Source: a virus
Virus record (IMG/VR): IMGVR_UViG_3300050021_000189
Span: 1 to 42,158 of that record
DNA: 42,158 nt
Direction: 5' to 3' (one strand)
Every line of letters starts with the position of its first letter. Position 1 is the first letter of the stretch. Shown piece after piece: positions 27,595-31,907 of the stretch. The notes beneath the pieces were generated by a model. The model ran no database searches. It was not told the DNA's origin and saw nothing but the letters and a program-made list of their open reading frames with translations. A program made the position numbers and the translations under genes.

Positions 27595-30500
27595 TCAGCT
27601 CACGAACTGCTCCAACACCGGCCCGCGGCGACGCTTGGGGGCGAGAGCCGCCTCGATCGACTCCAGCTCCTTGCCCAGGATCATCACCTTGGCGCTGTCT
27701 AAGGTGTGATAAGAGCCAGCGCCGAACTTGATCTGAGATCCCGTCTTGGAATCCCCGTCATTGCGGCTGTAGACCACAACCTGGCCCTGGAATTCAGTCA
27801 ACAATTCCTTGTCGTAGGGCAGTTCAAGCATCTGGGCATCGACATACTCGCGCAGTTTGTCCGTGGCGAACATGATGATGTTCTTCTCGATCATCGCGTC
27901 CTCAGGAACCTCCCTGCCCACCAGTGGCCGGTCGTCATACTCCACGGCTCGCTTCTCACTGAAGCCGTAGCCCTTCACTCGGTCACGGATCCCCTTATGA
28001 GCCGGATCCTTGTCCATGTGCTGCCACACCGGCAGACCGGCACCCGACTTGTCCATCGACAGGGCCCGCAACCGATCCCCATAGAACCCGAACACCTTGG
28101 CGATAACCTTCTCCTGGTCCACCGCCGAGACCCGCATGAGGTGAATCCTGGCGAGCAAACGCAGCAGGTCGACATCCTCGCCATTGCGCTTCGCTTTAGT
28201 CACCCCGAAGATCAACAGCTCGCTCGGGTCTCTGGTGAAGCCGATATCCATCCCGGCCCAGTAGGACGAGTAGGACTTGTTCAGGTGACTTAGAGGCAGG
28301 TTGATGAAGGACTCGATCGGACGCCGCTCGAGCGACTCACCTTCGACCTTGATGAGCGTGTAGACGTTCTCGTTGTAGTCGGTGGCCCAGGTGGACTCGT
28401 TGATCCGCACACAGTTGTGGTTCAACAAAGGTGCATCTCCAGCGAAATATGAAGGGTGCCCAGAAACCGTCAAGTCATAAACTGTGACCTGATCTTCTCC
28501 ACCACTGAGTCGATCGAAGACCTCACTTCCGCGTTCGTGAACCTCAACACAGTCCACCCTTGCAAACATAGCCATTCGTCGCGAATACGATCCCGCGCCA
28601 TGGCCCTCTCCGTGAAGTGTTCCGGCCCGTCCACCTCGACGGCAATCTTCATCGACTGATGGGCCAGATCCAGCTGAAACCGAATCAGATCCTCCCCAAG
28701 AGCCCCCAAGGGGCTGATCCACAACTCGGGTTGCCACTCGTCGCCCAACGCCCGCCAGAGCACGAACTGATCCATGGGCAACCCGCCCCGCTCGCTCCTG
28801 CGCATATGGTGAGACTGCTTGAGAGGTCTGAGCTTTACCTTGCTCGCATACCAGCACACCTTCGAGCAAAAGCGATGCGTCCGACGCAATGGTTGAAACA
28901 TCACCGAGCAATGAGCGCACGACGCCATCGGCAATCGCGCGTCCGTCTGACGTGCGTTCGCGCACGCCTTGGAGCAGAACTTCACCTTCTTGTCCGCACG
29001 ATAGAACTCGGTCCCGCAACGCACACAGAACTTCGACACCTTGGTCTGCAATGGCCTGAAGGTCAGACCCGCCCACTTCGAGGAGCAGGTTCGCGAGCAA
29101 AACTTCCGGTCCAACTTCGCCATAAAGGTCGTTCCGCACTGGCGGCACACCTTCGGCCCAGTCGCAGGTTGACGGCTGGCGTTCCAGCACTCTTGATTGC
29201 AATAGTGATAGCTGTTCTTCCCCTCCAAAAGCTTCCCGCAATAACGGCATTCCATCTCGCGATGTGGGTTGGCTTCCCGCTTCTGTCGAGCCGCACATTC
29301 CCGCGAGCATGTCGTCCGTTGCGGAACTAGGATCTCCTTGCTGCACATGGGGCACGCCCCATAGGTCCTGTGACCAGCCGTTCGGCATTCCGTACTGCAG
29401 TACTTCGCCACCCAGCGAGACTGAAACAGAGTCCCGCAGGTCTGACACACCTGCGAGGGACGCTCCACTCGCCTCGCCATCCCCGCGCATTTTCGTGAAC
29501 AGTATTTGAGCTGACTTGGTAAGGTCAGCGTCTTGCCACAGACCTCGCAAGCCTTCAAGGGTGAAGATCCGATCCCCTGGCTGGAGTCGATCGGCATGGC
29601 GCCAACCGTGGTCGGTAAAGAAGGGGTGCTCCGGGGTGCAGTATTCGTCATGGCCATCAAGTCCGATCACGAGGATATGGTCACGCCTGCTCGGGATCAC
29701 GTCAGTGACGGTTCCAGTGCCGATCGCGTTGAGGACACTATCACCAACTCGTATGTTCTCAACAGACGTAGCGCGAACCTGACCATCTACTTCTTGATAG
29801 ATAGACGTGCCGGGAGTTCGACAGGCCATGAGTCGAGCCAGCACGAACACCCGGTTACTGACATCCCCGGCCTCGCCGTAGATATTGCGTTTGTAGTCCG
29901 GGTTGTCTCGCGACCCTCCATAGATCGCGATCTTTTGCCTACGCTCCTCCGGGGACCATGTGGGCCGGTACATGGCGGGGTAATGATGGACGAAGAACGG
30001 CAGATCAGCGTCCCCAGAGGTGACCCGGTGGTACATATCCCGGACCCCATTACTCACGCCGTGAGCACGCCACTGGGCCCCTGGGATGCCGTGCTTCATC
30101 GTCTCGATGAGTTCGACCCAGCCTGCCTGAACGTAATCCTGACCCTCGTCGAGCTCAAGAATCAAAGGGTGCTGGTTGTGGCTAATGAGCCCGTCAGCCA
30201 GATAGGAGTGATCATCCTTGACGTGCAAGTCGTAAACCATCTGCGGCTCAGCAGGCATGATCGAGCGAACCCGCATCCACTGCTGATGCTTTTCCATAAC
30301 AGCTTGATTCTTGGAGCCACTGAGCGTGACCCGGTGGGCCCGCATCGGCTTGACCTTCAGGGCCCGACCACAGATATGAGTGACATCCGGATCGACCCAG
30401 CTATATGACCCGGCCCAGCCCAGTGACTGACCCAGTAGACGAAGTCCGATCGCCAGTTCCTTGGAGGCGCTACTGAACGTCCAGCGCTGCTTCTGCTCAT

Positions 30501-31680
30501 CCCACCAGCCATCACCACTGAGATAGCCCTCAAGAAAGGCCCTACGGTGCTCCTCGGAAGCCCCAAGCAACCACGTCGGGATGCACTTGCCATCAGAGTG
30601 CTGGCCGAACTCATCCCGCCATATCCTGGCAAGATCAGTACTACAGAAGCCCGTCTGGATGGAGCCATTGTCGCGAACGACCACAGCTGCTGGATGCAAA
30701 CCTGCGTTTGCAACGCGCGTTGTTAGGTCGACGACCTCGTGAGCCTCGGCGACAATCATCACGCGGCGCGGCACGCGCCTCTCTGCGCCTGACTTCATCA
30801 TCTGGAACATGAGGTGGCCATCAGCGACATACCGCCCGGCCAGCCATAGCAACTCCGGCGTAGCCCACACGGGCGTGATCTCCGGCTCGAACTGGGTAGG
30901 CGAGCCAAAGTAGAACCGGGTATCCGGCTCCTCGGCAGGAATGAGGAACTGCGACTGAGCAAGATCCCGCTTCTGCTTGGGCCCATTCAGAGCCCTACGG
31001 GCAAGCATCCGGTGATTGGCGCTCATCACGAGACCACGATGACCACCGCCATTGACGGTAACGACCTCTGGATTGAAGTAGGAGACGACGTGCTCCACCG
31101 GACGCCAGCGACCCATATGAGTGAACACCTCGTCACCGACATGGATATCCTCGACCTTCACCTGTCCACGACGGGTCAGGATGAGGGCTCCGGCGCCAAT
31201 GCTGCCTTTCACTCCACGTCCATCGTGGTTCGGCAGACGCCCCATAATCCTTGAGCTGTTCATGAAAGTGGCCTGAAACTGGGGCTGGTGCTTAATCCCA
31301 CCGCCTTTCTGGGGTGGCAGCATTTCCCGCAGTAGGCGGTACTCATTGAACCGTTCCTCCACCTTGTCCACGATCGGACTGAGGTGGTTGAGTTCGGGCG
31401 CAGTGATCAGCATCTCCTGGCCAGGGAAGTTGAACGGGAAGGCACACGCCCGCATGATGATGCCCACGGACTTACCCAGAGCTCGCGCCATCTTGTCGGC
31501 CTGATAGGTGTTCTCATTCCAGTAAAGCGAGTACTGGAAGTCCCAGAGTCGATACCTACGGTGGGCCCGACCTGGCGTGTCATCAGTCCAGATCATCTCC
31601 GCCAGATCGATACCCGAGGGATCATCCAGCAGGGCCGCCAGATACATCTCCTCGTCGTCCAACGCCATAATGGCTGGCAT
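27595..31680 (-). CDS. Terminase large subunit interrupted by two inteins
   Basis: A 1361-codon frame. Removing the two inteins leaves about 548 residues, the normal TerL length. The ATPase has a Walker-A-like ARALGKS (residues 65-71) and Walker B LILELDEGQD (506-515). The nuclease domain follows the second intein: MDIGFTRDP and MDKSGAGLP carry RuvC-type Asp residues, with LDSAKV near the end. TerL packages DNA through the portal and cuts it at headful or cos ends. Intein 1 (residues 160-502) sits just before Walker B; intein 2 (620-1089) sits before the nuclease. Both sites are in conserved stretches, as usual for inteins. ATG 31680 shares a base with the upstream TGA. Assignment is firm; splicing competence is inferred. 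Confidence 0.92.
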   Translation of the reverse strand: MPAIMALDDEEMYLAALLDDPSGIDLAEMIWTDDTPGRAHRRYRLWDFQYSLYWNENTYQADKMARALGKSVGIIMRACAFPFNFPGQEMLITAPELNHLSPIVDKVEERFNEYRLLREMLPPQKGGGIKHQPQFQATFMNSSRIMGRLPNHDGRGVKGSIGAGALILTRRGQVKVEDIHVGDEVFTHMGRWRPVEHVVSYFNPEVVTVNGGGHRGLVMSANHRMLARRALNGPKQKRDLAQSQFLIPAEEPDTRFYFGSPTQFEPEITPVWATPELLWLAGRYVADGHLMFQMMKSGAERRVPRRVMIVAEAHEVVDLTTRVANAGLHPAAVVVRDNGSIQTGFCSTDLARIWRDEFGQHSDGKCIPTWLLGASEEHRRAFLEGYLSGDGWWDEQKQRWTFSSASKELAIGLRLLGQSLGWAGSYSWVDPDVTHICGRALKVKPMRAHRVTLSGSKNQAVMEKHQQWMRVRSIMPAEPQMVYDLHVKDDHSYLADGLISHNQHPLILELDEGQDYVQAGWVELIETMKHGIPGAQWRAHGVSNGVRDMYHRVTSGDADLPFFVHHYPAMYRPTWSPEERRQKIAIYGGSRDNPDYKRNIYGEAGDVSNRVFVLARLMACRTPGTSIYQEVDGQVRATSVENIRVGDSVLNAIGTGTVTDVIPSRRDHILVIGLDGHDEYCTPEHPFFTDHGWRHADRLQPGDRIFTLEGLRGLWQDADLTKSAQILFTKMRGDGEASGASLAGVSDLRDSVSVSLGGEVLQYGMPNGWSQDLWGVPHVQQGDPSSATDDMLAGMCGSTEAGSQPTSRDGMPLLREAFGGEEQLSLLQSRVLERQPSTCDWAEGVPPVRNDLYGEVGPEVLLANLLLEVGGSDLQAIADQGVEVLCALRDRVLSCGQEGEVLLQGVRERTSDGRAIADGVVRSLLGDVSTIASDASLLLEGVLVCEQGKAQTSQAVSPYAQERAGRVAHGSVRALAGVGRRVATRVVDQPLGGSWGGSDSVSAGSGPSVDEDCRRGGRAGTLHGEGHGAGSYSRRMAMFARVDCVEVHERGSEVFDRLSGGEDQVTVYDLTVSGHPSYFAGDAPLLNHNCVRINESTWATDYNENVYTLIKVEGESLERRPIESFINLPLSHLNKSYSSYWAGMDIGFTRDPSELLIFGVTKAKRNGEDVDLLRLLARIHLMRVSAVDQEKVIAKVFGFYGDRLRALSMDKSGAGLPVWQHMDKDPAHKGIRDRVKGYGFSEKRAVEYDDRPLVGREVPEDAMIEKNIIMFATDKLREYVDAQMLELPYDKELLTEFQGQVVVYSRNDGDSKTGSQIKFGAGSYHTLDSAKVMILGKELESIEAALAPKRRRGPVLEQFVS
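28414..29823 (-). mobile_element. TerL intein 2 (class 1, canonical splice residues)
   Basis: A 470-residue insert. It begins Cys620 (CRTPGTSIY, block A), has block B YCTPEHPFFTD (Thr682, His685), block F VTVYDLTVSGHPSYFAG and ends LLNHN, with Cys1090 at +1: all canonical. The extein rejoins as LMA-CVRINES. Between blocks B and F, residues about 711-1055 are a Gly/Ser/Leu/Val-rich stretch with no known domain and no LAGLIDADG motif. Exactly this stretch is the shadow of the nuclease gene at 28470-29657 in another frame. Confidence 0.88.
28470..29657 (-). CDS. Homing endonuclease nested in intein 2: seven Zn modules plus Vsr/DUF559-type nuclease
   Basis: A 395-codon frame on the same strand as TerL but one base out of phase (+1), wholly inside intein 2. 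Seven modules of form CxxC-x9to12-CxxxC (numbering from TTG 29660: residues 38-58, 72-92, 103-122, 138-158, 172-192, 212-233, 248-269) read like a DNA-binding treble-clef array. The C terminus (323-375) matches the DUF559/Vsr-like PD-(D/E)xK nuclease: GED, IAVEVDGPEHF, RDRIRDEWLCLQGWTVLRF. EDxHD/Vsr-type homing enzymes are known beside split inteins, so this most likely cuts intein-free terL. Start ATG 29657 or 29651 with a weak RBS, overlapping intein block B; its stop overlaps block F. The recognised domains leave little doubt that this frame is coding. Confidence 0.88.
   Translation of the reverse strand: MAMTNTAPRSTPSLPTTVGAMPIDSSQGIGSSPLKACEVCGKTLTLPSQLKYCSRKCAGMARRVERPSQVCQTCGTLFQSRWVAKYCSTECRTAGHRTYGACPMCSKEILVPQRTTCSRECAARQKREANPHREMECRYCGKLLEGKNSYHYCNQECWNASRQPATGPKVCRQCGTTFMAKLDRKFCSRTCSSKWAGLTFRPLQTKVSKFCVRCGTEFYRADKKVKFCSKACANARQTDARLPMASCAHCSVMFQPLRRTHRFCSKVCWYASKVKLRPLKQSHHMRRSERGGLPMDQFVLWRALGDEWQPELWISPLGALGEDLIRFQLDLAHQSMKIAVEVDGPEHFTERAMARDRIRDEWLCLQGWTVLRFTNAEVRSSIDSVVEKIRSQFMT
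30175..31203 (-). mobile_element. TerL intein 1 with in-frame LAGLIDADG endonuclease; Gln at +1
   Basis: A 343-residue insert from Ser160 to Asn502. Block A aligns as SIGAGALILT against CxxGDTxVxT; a block-B-like SANHRML (Ser220, His223) follows; block F/G reads MVYDLHVKDDHSYLADG then LISHN. Two LAGLIDADG helices are visible, LAGRYVADGH (280-289) and FLEGYLSGDG (382-391), so the homing enzyme is in frame. The next residue is Gln503 where Cys, Ser or Thr is expected, and the rejoined extein would read GVKG-QHPLILELDEG. Known splicing chemistry needs a +1 nucleophile, so this is either an atypical intein, a cleavage-only element, or a splice point placed elsewhere. Confidence 0.85.
30712..30721. 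promoter_or_regulatory. AACGCGCGTT palindrome, site 4 (within intein 1)
   Basis: An exact ten-base palindrome inside intein 1, encoding Thr-Arg-Val. Its presence in the mobile intein may be chance or may make the intein subject to the same binding protein. Confidence 0.35.
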
Positions 31681-31907
31681 CAGAAGCCCCGCAGACGATT
31701 ACCGGCCCAGATGCGAGCCTTGGTCCAAACAGAGAGCTTCCGCGTCCTGTACCCGCACCGCGCGCACTCATTGGGGCCATAGACGTCGTCGTAGACGTGA
31801 TGACCAGGACGTTCGTCAGTACCCAAGCAGATGGATGCGAACAAGCCTTCGATCCGCTCGACGGGACGCCTGCCGCCAGTCAAATTCCAGAAGGGCTCGA
31901 CACTCAT
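31680..31907 (-). CDS. Small protein upstream of TerL
   Basis: A 75-residue basic protein with a single CARCG motif near residue 50. ATG 31907 overlaps the previous stop (ATGA) and its TGA overlaps the TerL ATG, so it is translated in a coupled chain with the terminase genes. No family is recognised; half of a zinc site is visible. Confidence 0.55.
   Translation of the reverse strand: MSVEPFWNLTGGRRPVERIEGLFASICLGTDERPGHHVYDDVYGPNECARCGYRTRKLSVWTKARIWAGNRLRGF

Follow-up and report, generated by a model that had tools for sequence, protein, structure and literature searches.

A phage terL intein with a putative homing endonuclease gene nested in its +1 reading frame

Canonical LAGLIDADG inteins carry their endonuclease between two Hint halves, in the same frame and the same polypeptide. 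A different arrangement is found in fractured genes, where a Vsr-like/EDxHD nuclease that is free-standing reportedly accompanies split inteins (Dassa et al. 2009, NAR 37:2560; via PMC10448857). In these, phage replication genes are broken by the intein, the nuclease lies between the Hint halves, and the host gene is left in two. The EDxHD family of homing endonucleases is established (PMC3943268), and one of its members, I-Bth0305I (PDB 3r3p), is encoded in a group I intron with no overlapping coding frame. Finally, a 2025 report on the ShiLan domain (PMC11855218) described HNH endonucleases encoded out of frame within open insertions in phage methylases, with no intein.

We analyzed a viral DNA of 42,158 nucleotides (the window; IMG/VR record IMGVR_UViG_3300050021_000189, positions 1 to 42,158) whose terL gene contains two inteins. 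Intein 2 shares with canonical inteins, e.g., TerL intein 1, an endonuclease placed as usual between two Hint halves and the expectation of homing, but its endonuclease is in a separate frame and would be a separate protein. Like the fractured genes, it has an EDxHD nuclease between its Hint halves; unlike them, its frame stays open through the nuclease, cis splicing is possible, and the DNA is dual-coded. As with ShiLan, the nuclease occupies another frame of an insert, which in the host frame is open and without a recognizable domain. However, ShiLan nucleases are HNH enzymes with no splicing and no functional domain overlapped, whereas intein 2 combines an EDxHD nuclease with a predicted splicing intein and codons shared with a Hint strand. 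The nuclease resembles I-Bth0305I in its Vsr-like catalytic fold and elongated modular DNA-binding arrangement, but differs in using seven zinc modules for DNA binding.

The window does not meet the criterion for a canonical intein (endonuclease in the Hint frame), the nuclease being +1 here and in 124/124 nonredundant relatives, nor that for a ShiLan-type insert (no splicing domain), as Hint halves are present. The fractured-gene criterion (two ORFs) is not met in the window and is met in L126 and a few other relatives. No paper on an out-of-frame nuclease in an intein was found in the literature searched, which excluded a preprint on actinobacteriophage inteins (Gosselin et al. 2025, 10.1101/2025.01.02.630785). 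Its title mentions non-canonical architecture, and it may overlap with the dual-frame finding; priority is open.

Anatomy of intein 2 and the nested nuclease

The features of the locus, all on the minus strand, are as follows.

27595-31680 (-): terL ORF, 1361 aa with two inteins; spliced exteins 548 aa
30175-31203 (-): TerL intein 1, 343 aa, LAGLIDADG in frame
28414-29823 (-): TerL intein 2, 470 aa, Cys1 through His-Asn, then Cys+1
29554-29823 (-): N-terminal Hint half, intein residues 1-90
28567-29553 (-): intein-frame linker, residues 91-419 (329 residues)
28414-28566 (-): C-terminal Hint half, intein residues 420-470
28470-29660 (-): nested ORF, putative homing endonuclease, 396 codons, +1 frame of the terL ORF
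28847-29549 (-): seven CxxC...CxxxC zinc modules, nested frame
28473-28877 (-): DUF559/EDxHD (Vsr-like) nuclease domain, nested frame
28473-28566 (-): dual-coded segment, read as GWTVLRFTN... of the nuclease (+1 frame) and as RVDCVEVHE... of a Hint strand (TerL frame)

Over 99% of their length, the spliced TerL exteins share 38.8% identity with the TerL of Caudovirales GX15bay. Intein 2 begins with a Cys1 codon at 29823 and ends with an Asn codon at 28414, giving class-1-type residues at the HN/C junction (slashes mark splice junctions throughout); the corresponding empty site in TerL relatives is LARLMA/CVRIN. Its N-terminal Hint half (AlphaFold pLDDT, 94 to 98) and C-terminal Hint half (mostly 94 to 97) together give a Hint fold. 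They matched the hintN and hintC profiles that we built at 4.8e-23 and 3.9e-20, respectively, and intein 2 matched Pfam PT-HINT at 8.1e-06. The linker between them has no confident fold (pLDDT mostly 29 to 62), and its DNA is the same DNA that encodes the zinc modules and most of the nuclease. Intein 2 is likely a contiguous class-1-like intein, with splicing inferred from its anatomy, conservation, and family.

TerL intein 1 matched Pfam Intein_splicing (5.5e-14) and LAGLIDADG_3 (2.9e-05). Its C terminus is SHN followed by Gln (junction at 30174) rather than Cys, Ser, or Thr, and its apparent first residue is Ser. The same intein, also with +1 Gln, is present in L104, and that of L116 has Cys1 and is followed by +1 Met. 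At this +1 position, native TerL residues vary (Q, S, M, T, or I). Intein 1 and the L104 and L116 inteins form a group without a +1 nucleophile.

In the nested frame, zinc modules are at residues 38, 72, 103, 138, 172, 212, and 248, with parts of the region modeled at a pLDDT of >80. The nuclease domain follows, with conserved E, D, H, and D residues and a GW.VLRF.N motif. Pfam DUF559 matched nested residues 327 to 392 at 2.2e-13, and all 69 aligned relatives matched DUF559 as well. Across these 69 proteins, D297, D310, H314, and D323 are invariant, and E308 is conserved in at least 90%. An AlphaFold model of the nuclease (362 aa, from an alignment led by the window protein) had a pLDDT of 94 to 98 over most of residues 262 to 361. 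Three rows taken from annotated phage records were omitted from the alignments used for structure modeling. With Foldseek, this model matched the Neisseria endonuclease-like protein 3hrl (probability 1.00, target TM 0.74) and I-Bth0305I (3r3p; probability 0.94). A profile search of PDB sequences returned the same two proteins at 1.2e-13 and 0.0094, respectively. These data support assignment of the nested protein as an EDxHD (Vsr/DUF559) homing endonuclease; there are no cleavage data, and the homing role is inferred from family and anatomy.

Candidate nested starts in the window are ATG 29657, ATG 29591, and TTG 29558, the last of which lines up with start codons in relatives. The window lacks a strong Shine-Dalgarno match. 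A start codon lies just upstream of the first zinc module in 74/74 nested ORFs examined (ATG in 69). A Shine-Dalgarno-like match of at least 5 nt precedes 23 of these 74 starts versus 2.5% of other ATGs in the same genes, though the former figure is raised by picking the best of several candidate starts. The nested frame was unannotated in every annotated phage record that we examined.

The first-pass annotation, made from sequence alone, had proposed a +1-frame nuclease inside intein 2 with seven zinc modules and a Vsr/DUF559-type domain. This held: the ORF and the presence of an ATG at 29657 were confirmed, as were the seven modules, and the nuclease was supported by its fold and by profile search, where lack of a match would have counted against the idea. 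It had also described the overlapping TerL frame as a Gly/Ser-rich, domainless stretch coextensive with the zinc modules and nuclease. The stretch does start with zinc module 1 (linker at 29553, module at 29549). It does not end with the nuclease, as the linker stops at 28567, about 95 nt before the nuclease end. Its Gly/Ser enrichment is no more than moderate (G, 15%; L, 11%; S, 10%), and that part of the claim held only partly.

Relatives of the intein and selection on the two frames

Using tblastn with the nested protein, we identified phage helicase genes, in Corynebacterium phage phi673 and in Pseudomonas phage MR14, and searches from these led to Vibrio phages including CP-T1, K391, and 1.088.O. 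All of these helicases have an intein at DE/C...HN/CHH with the nuclease in its +1 frame. Scans of viral contigs with a single protein (the window nuclease or the MR14 nuclease) gave nothing usable, but alignment-led scans of viral contigs and bacterial genomes succeeded. We classified the resulting loci with our own Hint-half and nuclease profiles. The nuclease was found at 176 loci, mostly viral, with both Hint halves detected in 170. In every one of those 170 the nuclease is exactly +1 (124/124 after removal of redundancy). As the loci were collected via nuclease similarity, these counts do not give the share of such inteins among all inteins.

Insertion sites are mostly helicase Walker B motifs (DE/C-H in SF2 helicases), and some resemble clamp-loader genes. 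Three loci (L125, L127, and L128) have this architecture in terL, at the very site that intein 2 occupies in the window. Fifteen TerL relatives (L099 to L113), with identity of up to 79% in the C-terminal extein, are uninterrupted at the intein 2 position (LARLMAC/VRIN). In Vibrio phages K453, 268E42.1, and 13VV501A (L119 to L121), the helicase-site mini-inteins are intact while the nuclease segment is gone. These have the same site and Hint fold as the DEAH helicase inteins, with a short loop instead of the nuclease, and presumably represent a decayed or empty stage. Empty sites and nuclease-less mini-inteins are consistent with homing and loss, the usual intein life cycle, with homing itself inferred.

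Several other loci were noted along the way. The 13VV501A helicase (L121, 1652-4153) has two mini-inteins, at the P-loop (GAGK/CHRKGT...) and at the DEAH motif. Related nucleases in L054, L092, and L098 have no Hint halves or Rfam introns detected nearby and are possibly free-standing homing genes. Mycobacterium phage Malithi (L003, 2971-3768) has a zinc-module DUF559-like ORF antisense to gene 54 and beside methyltransferase genes; either the gene 54 annotation is on the wrong strand or the two overlap in antisense. We did not use the Malithi/Camster mycobacteriophage matches, which were weak (2e-6), antisense to an annotated gene, and outside any intein. The portal intein of mycobacteriophage ET08 was rejected as a further case; its endonuclease region is LAGLIDADG-like and in frame, i.e., a normal intein.

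The TerL frame has no stops across the whole nested ORF. We shuffled synonymous codons of the nested ORF and counted stops in the other frames. For the window, the TerL frame had 0 stops against 12.1 expected, and the third frame had 12 against 11.9. Summed over 118 open nonredundant loci, the intein frame had 0 stops against 1,197.7 expected, with 2,080 against 1,906 in the third frame. Loci were labeled open before the test; however, the intein frame is open in 118 of the 124 nonredundant loci with both Hint halves, so this labeling cannot account for the deficit. The deficit was seen from 28% to 62% GC.

Substitution tests were performed on close pairs of helicase-intein relatives, as the intein-bearing TerL relatives were too diverged. 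Between the Vibrio phage loci L007 and L010, changes at nested codon positions 1, 2, and 3 numbered 4, 1, and 31. The pN/pS values were 0.012/0.254 for the nested frame and 0.075/0.039 for the intein frame (linker). Other close pairs mostly agreed, and the least diverged pairs were noisy. The nested frame is thus under purifying selection in these pairs. With changes concentrated at the nested third position, the sequence of the linker simply follows from that of the nuclease, limited only to staying stop-free. By sequence analysis, both frames are maintained by selection in at least 118 distinct loci.

The 3' end of the nuclease is under a further constraint. Its last ~30 residues overlap a folded Hint strand (intein residues 420 to 430), such that GWxVLRFxN of the nuclease and R[VL][DE]S[VI]E[IV]x[EK] of the Hint strand are read from the same bases, one position apart. 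This register was identical in 66/66 loci in which the motif was found, including both TerL and helicase inteins. We compared intein-frame conservation with the synonymous expectation given the nested protein and no stops. Most linker columns did not exceed this expectation. The dual-coded motif did, with z = 40 at a Val column and 22 at a downstream Tyr column; kinship among loci inflates these values, which are a guide and not probabilities. The glycine before the motif tryptophan is GGG in 58/71 cases, giving Val in the intein frame. In our reading, the +1 phase is locked because GWxVLRFxN and R[VL][DE]S[VI]E share codons one base apart. That the register is fixed points to a single origin, and the N-terminal Hint half and the nuclease core show correlated divergence (Mantel r = 0.57, p = 0.001).

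These results bear on the remaining initial claims. That the TerL frame stays open through the nuclease region held, and it does so more than chance allows by synonymous shuffling. The view of the linker as a by-product of the nuclease code also held with refinement, in that the linker is selected to be stop-free and its 3' end is dual-coded rather than domainless. A proposed comparison of synonymous and nonsynonymous change, run on close helicase-intein pairs, showed nested purifying selection and a linker free in the intein frame. A broken nested frame within an intact intein, which would have refuted the idea, was not met; the Vibrio mini-intein relatives lost the entire nuclease segment. 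That one DNA segment carries two proteins is supported by anatomy and two-frame selection, with nested translation inferred, and the homing endonuclease identity is supported by family and anatomy in the absence of cleavage data.

Proposed mechanism and alternative readings

Taken together, intein 2 is very likely a dual-frame homing intein with a separate +1 endonuclease gene, a layout that we consider ancestral. Anatomy, phase conservation, two-frame selection, empty sites, and homology are shown by sequence analysis; splicing, nested translation, cleavage, and homing are inferred. In our model, the two Hint halves of the TerL frame, separated by the long disordered linker, would fold and self-excise. 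The linker DNA and the start of the C-terminal Hint half would, in the +1 frame, form a separate gene for a zinc-module EDxHD endonuclease, most likely made by independent initiation within the terL message. This endonuclease would cut intein-free terL at LARLMA/CVRIN, and repair of the cut site would copy the whole intein across. The layout would be ancestral to a large phage intein family located mostly at the DE/C-H Walker B site of SF2 helicases.

An alternative is that programmed +1 frameshifting fuses the nuclease to the N-terminal Hint half. In support, the nested frame is open well 5' of the first zinc module in some loci, by 35 codons in the window. Against it, all 74 loci have start codons, and in several a nested stop lies immediately or 1 to 4 codons before an ATG next to a Shine-Dalgarno-like match, e.g., L097 (AGGAGGTATATAAATG), L080, L005, and L020. 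A stop just before the ATG would confine any shift to a few codons. We consider frameshifting unlikely.

Second, the locus could be a misread fractured gene, i.e., a split intein acting in trans with a free-standing nuclease gene between its halves. Five loci favor this reading, L126 (at the same TerL site), L051, L060, L070, and L091, which have stops between the Hint halves and an intact nuclease. The C-half of L126 has its own ATG within the nuclease 3' end, and the UvsW genes of T4-like phages S16 and PM2 are so arranged with another nuclease. Against it, the intein frame is open against the odds in the window and 117 other nonredundant loci, which makes cis splicing of one polypeptide the simplest reading. 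A fractured window locus is therefore very unlikely, although cis and trans splicing could possibly coexist if the C-half also initiates internally.

Third, the nested ORF could be a nonfunctional relic, arising from chance insertion of a homing endonuclease gene into a mini-intein or from an in-frame domain shifted by two indels. Long spurious ORFs are indeed common in other frames of GC-rich DNA. However, 124/124 diverse loci, ranging from 28 to 62% GC, have the same phase, the catalytic E, D, H, and D are invariant or nearly so, the nested frame is under purifying selection, and there are 0 versus ~1,198 expected intein-frame stops. This too is very unlikely.

The insert as a self-splicing intron is all but excluded. 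EDxHD nucleases are also known in group I introns (I-Bth0305I; PMC3943268), but the Hint halves fold and the C1 and HN/C junctions are canonical. An Rfam search of 27600-31700 gave no group I intron match at E values up to 1, and none was found in a search of the non-intein and fractured relatives. A sequencing-frameshift artifact is excluded by the identical phase in 124 nonredundant loci, and a chance open frame in GC-rich DNA is excluded by synonymous shuffling, including loci at 28 to 35% GC.

Relation to fractured genes and meaning for phage inteins

The TerL site of the window also occurs in fractured form. In L126 (3739-5154), a nested-type nuclease is intact, with 31 stops between the Hint halves. 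We believe that the nested form is best viewed as the unbroken counterpart of the fractured genes, with no direction of change implied. Separately, in Salmonella phage S16 (L118, 1814-4540) and Proteus phage PM2 (L124, 1814-4546), an intein splits UvsW, and the nuclease ORF in between is a different one; the two halves share one frame, and the intervening nuclease overlaps both.

The dual-frame organization of intein 2 implies that an intein can overlap with its homing endonuclease and yet be a separate protein, provided that the nested frame is translated as we infer. As both forms occur at this one TerL site, contiguous inteins are concretely linked to naturally split ones. The locus is also a rare, clean example of a long overlap on one strand where two unrelated folds use the same codons, which allows constraint on two frames to be measured. 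In practice, a nuclease gene is overlooked when these helicase and terminase genes are annotated.

A bolder reading, toward which we lean with reservation, is that dual-frame inteins make up a class of mobile elements that is widespread, ancient, and undescribed, phase-locked at +1 by a codon-sharing strand and interconverting with fractured genes by gain or loss of intein-frame stops. If this is true, contiguous and naturally split inteins would have a path by which to evolve into one another.
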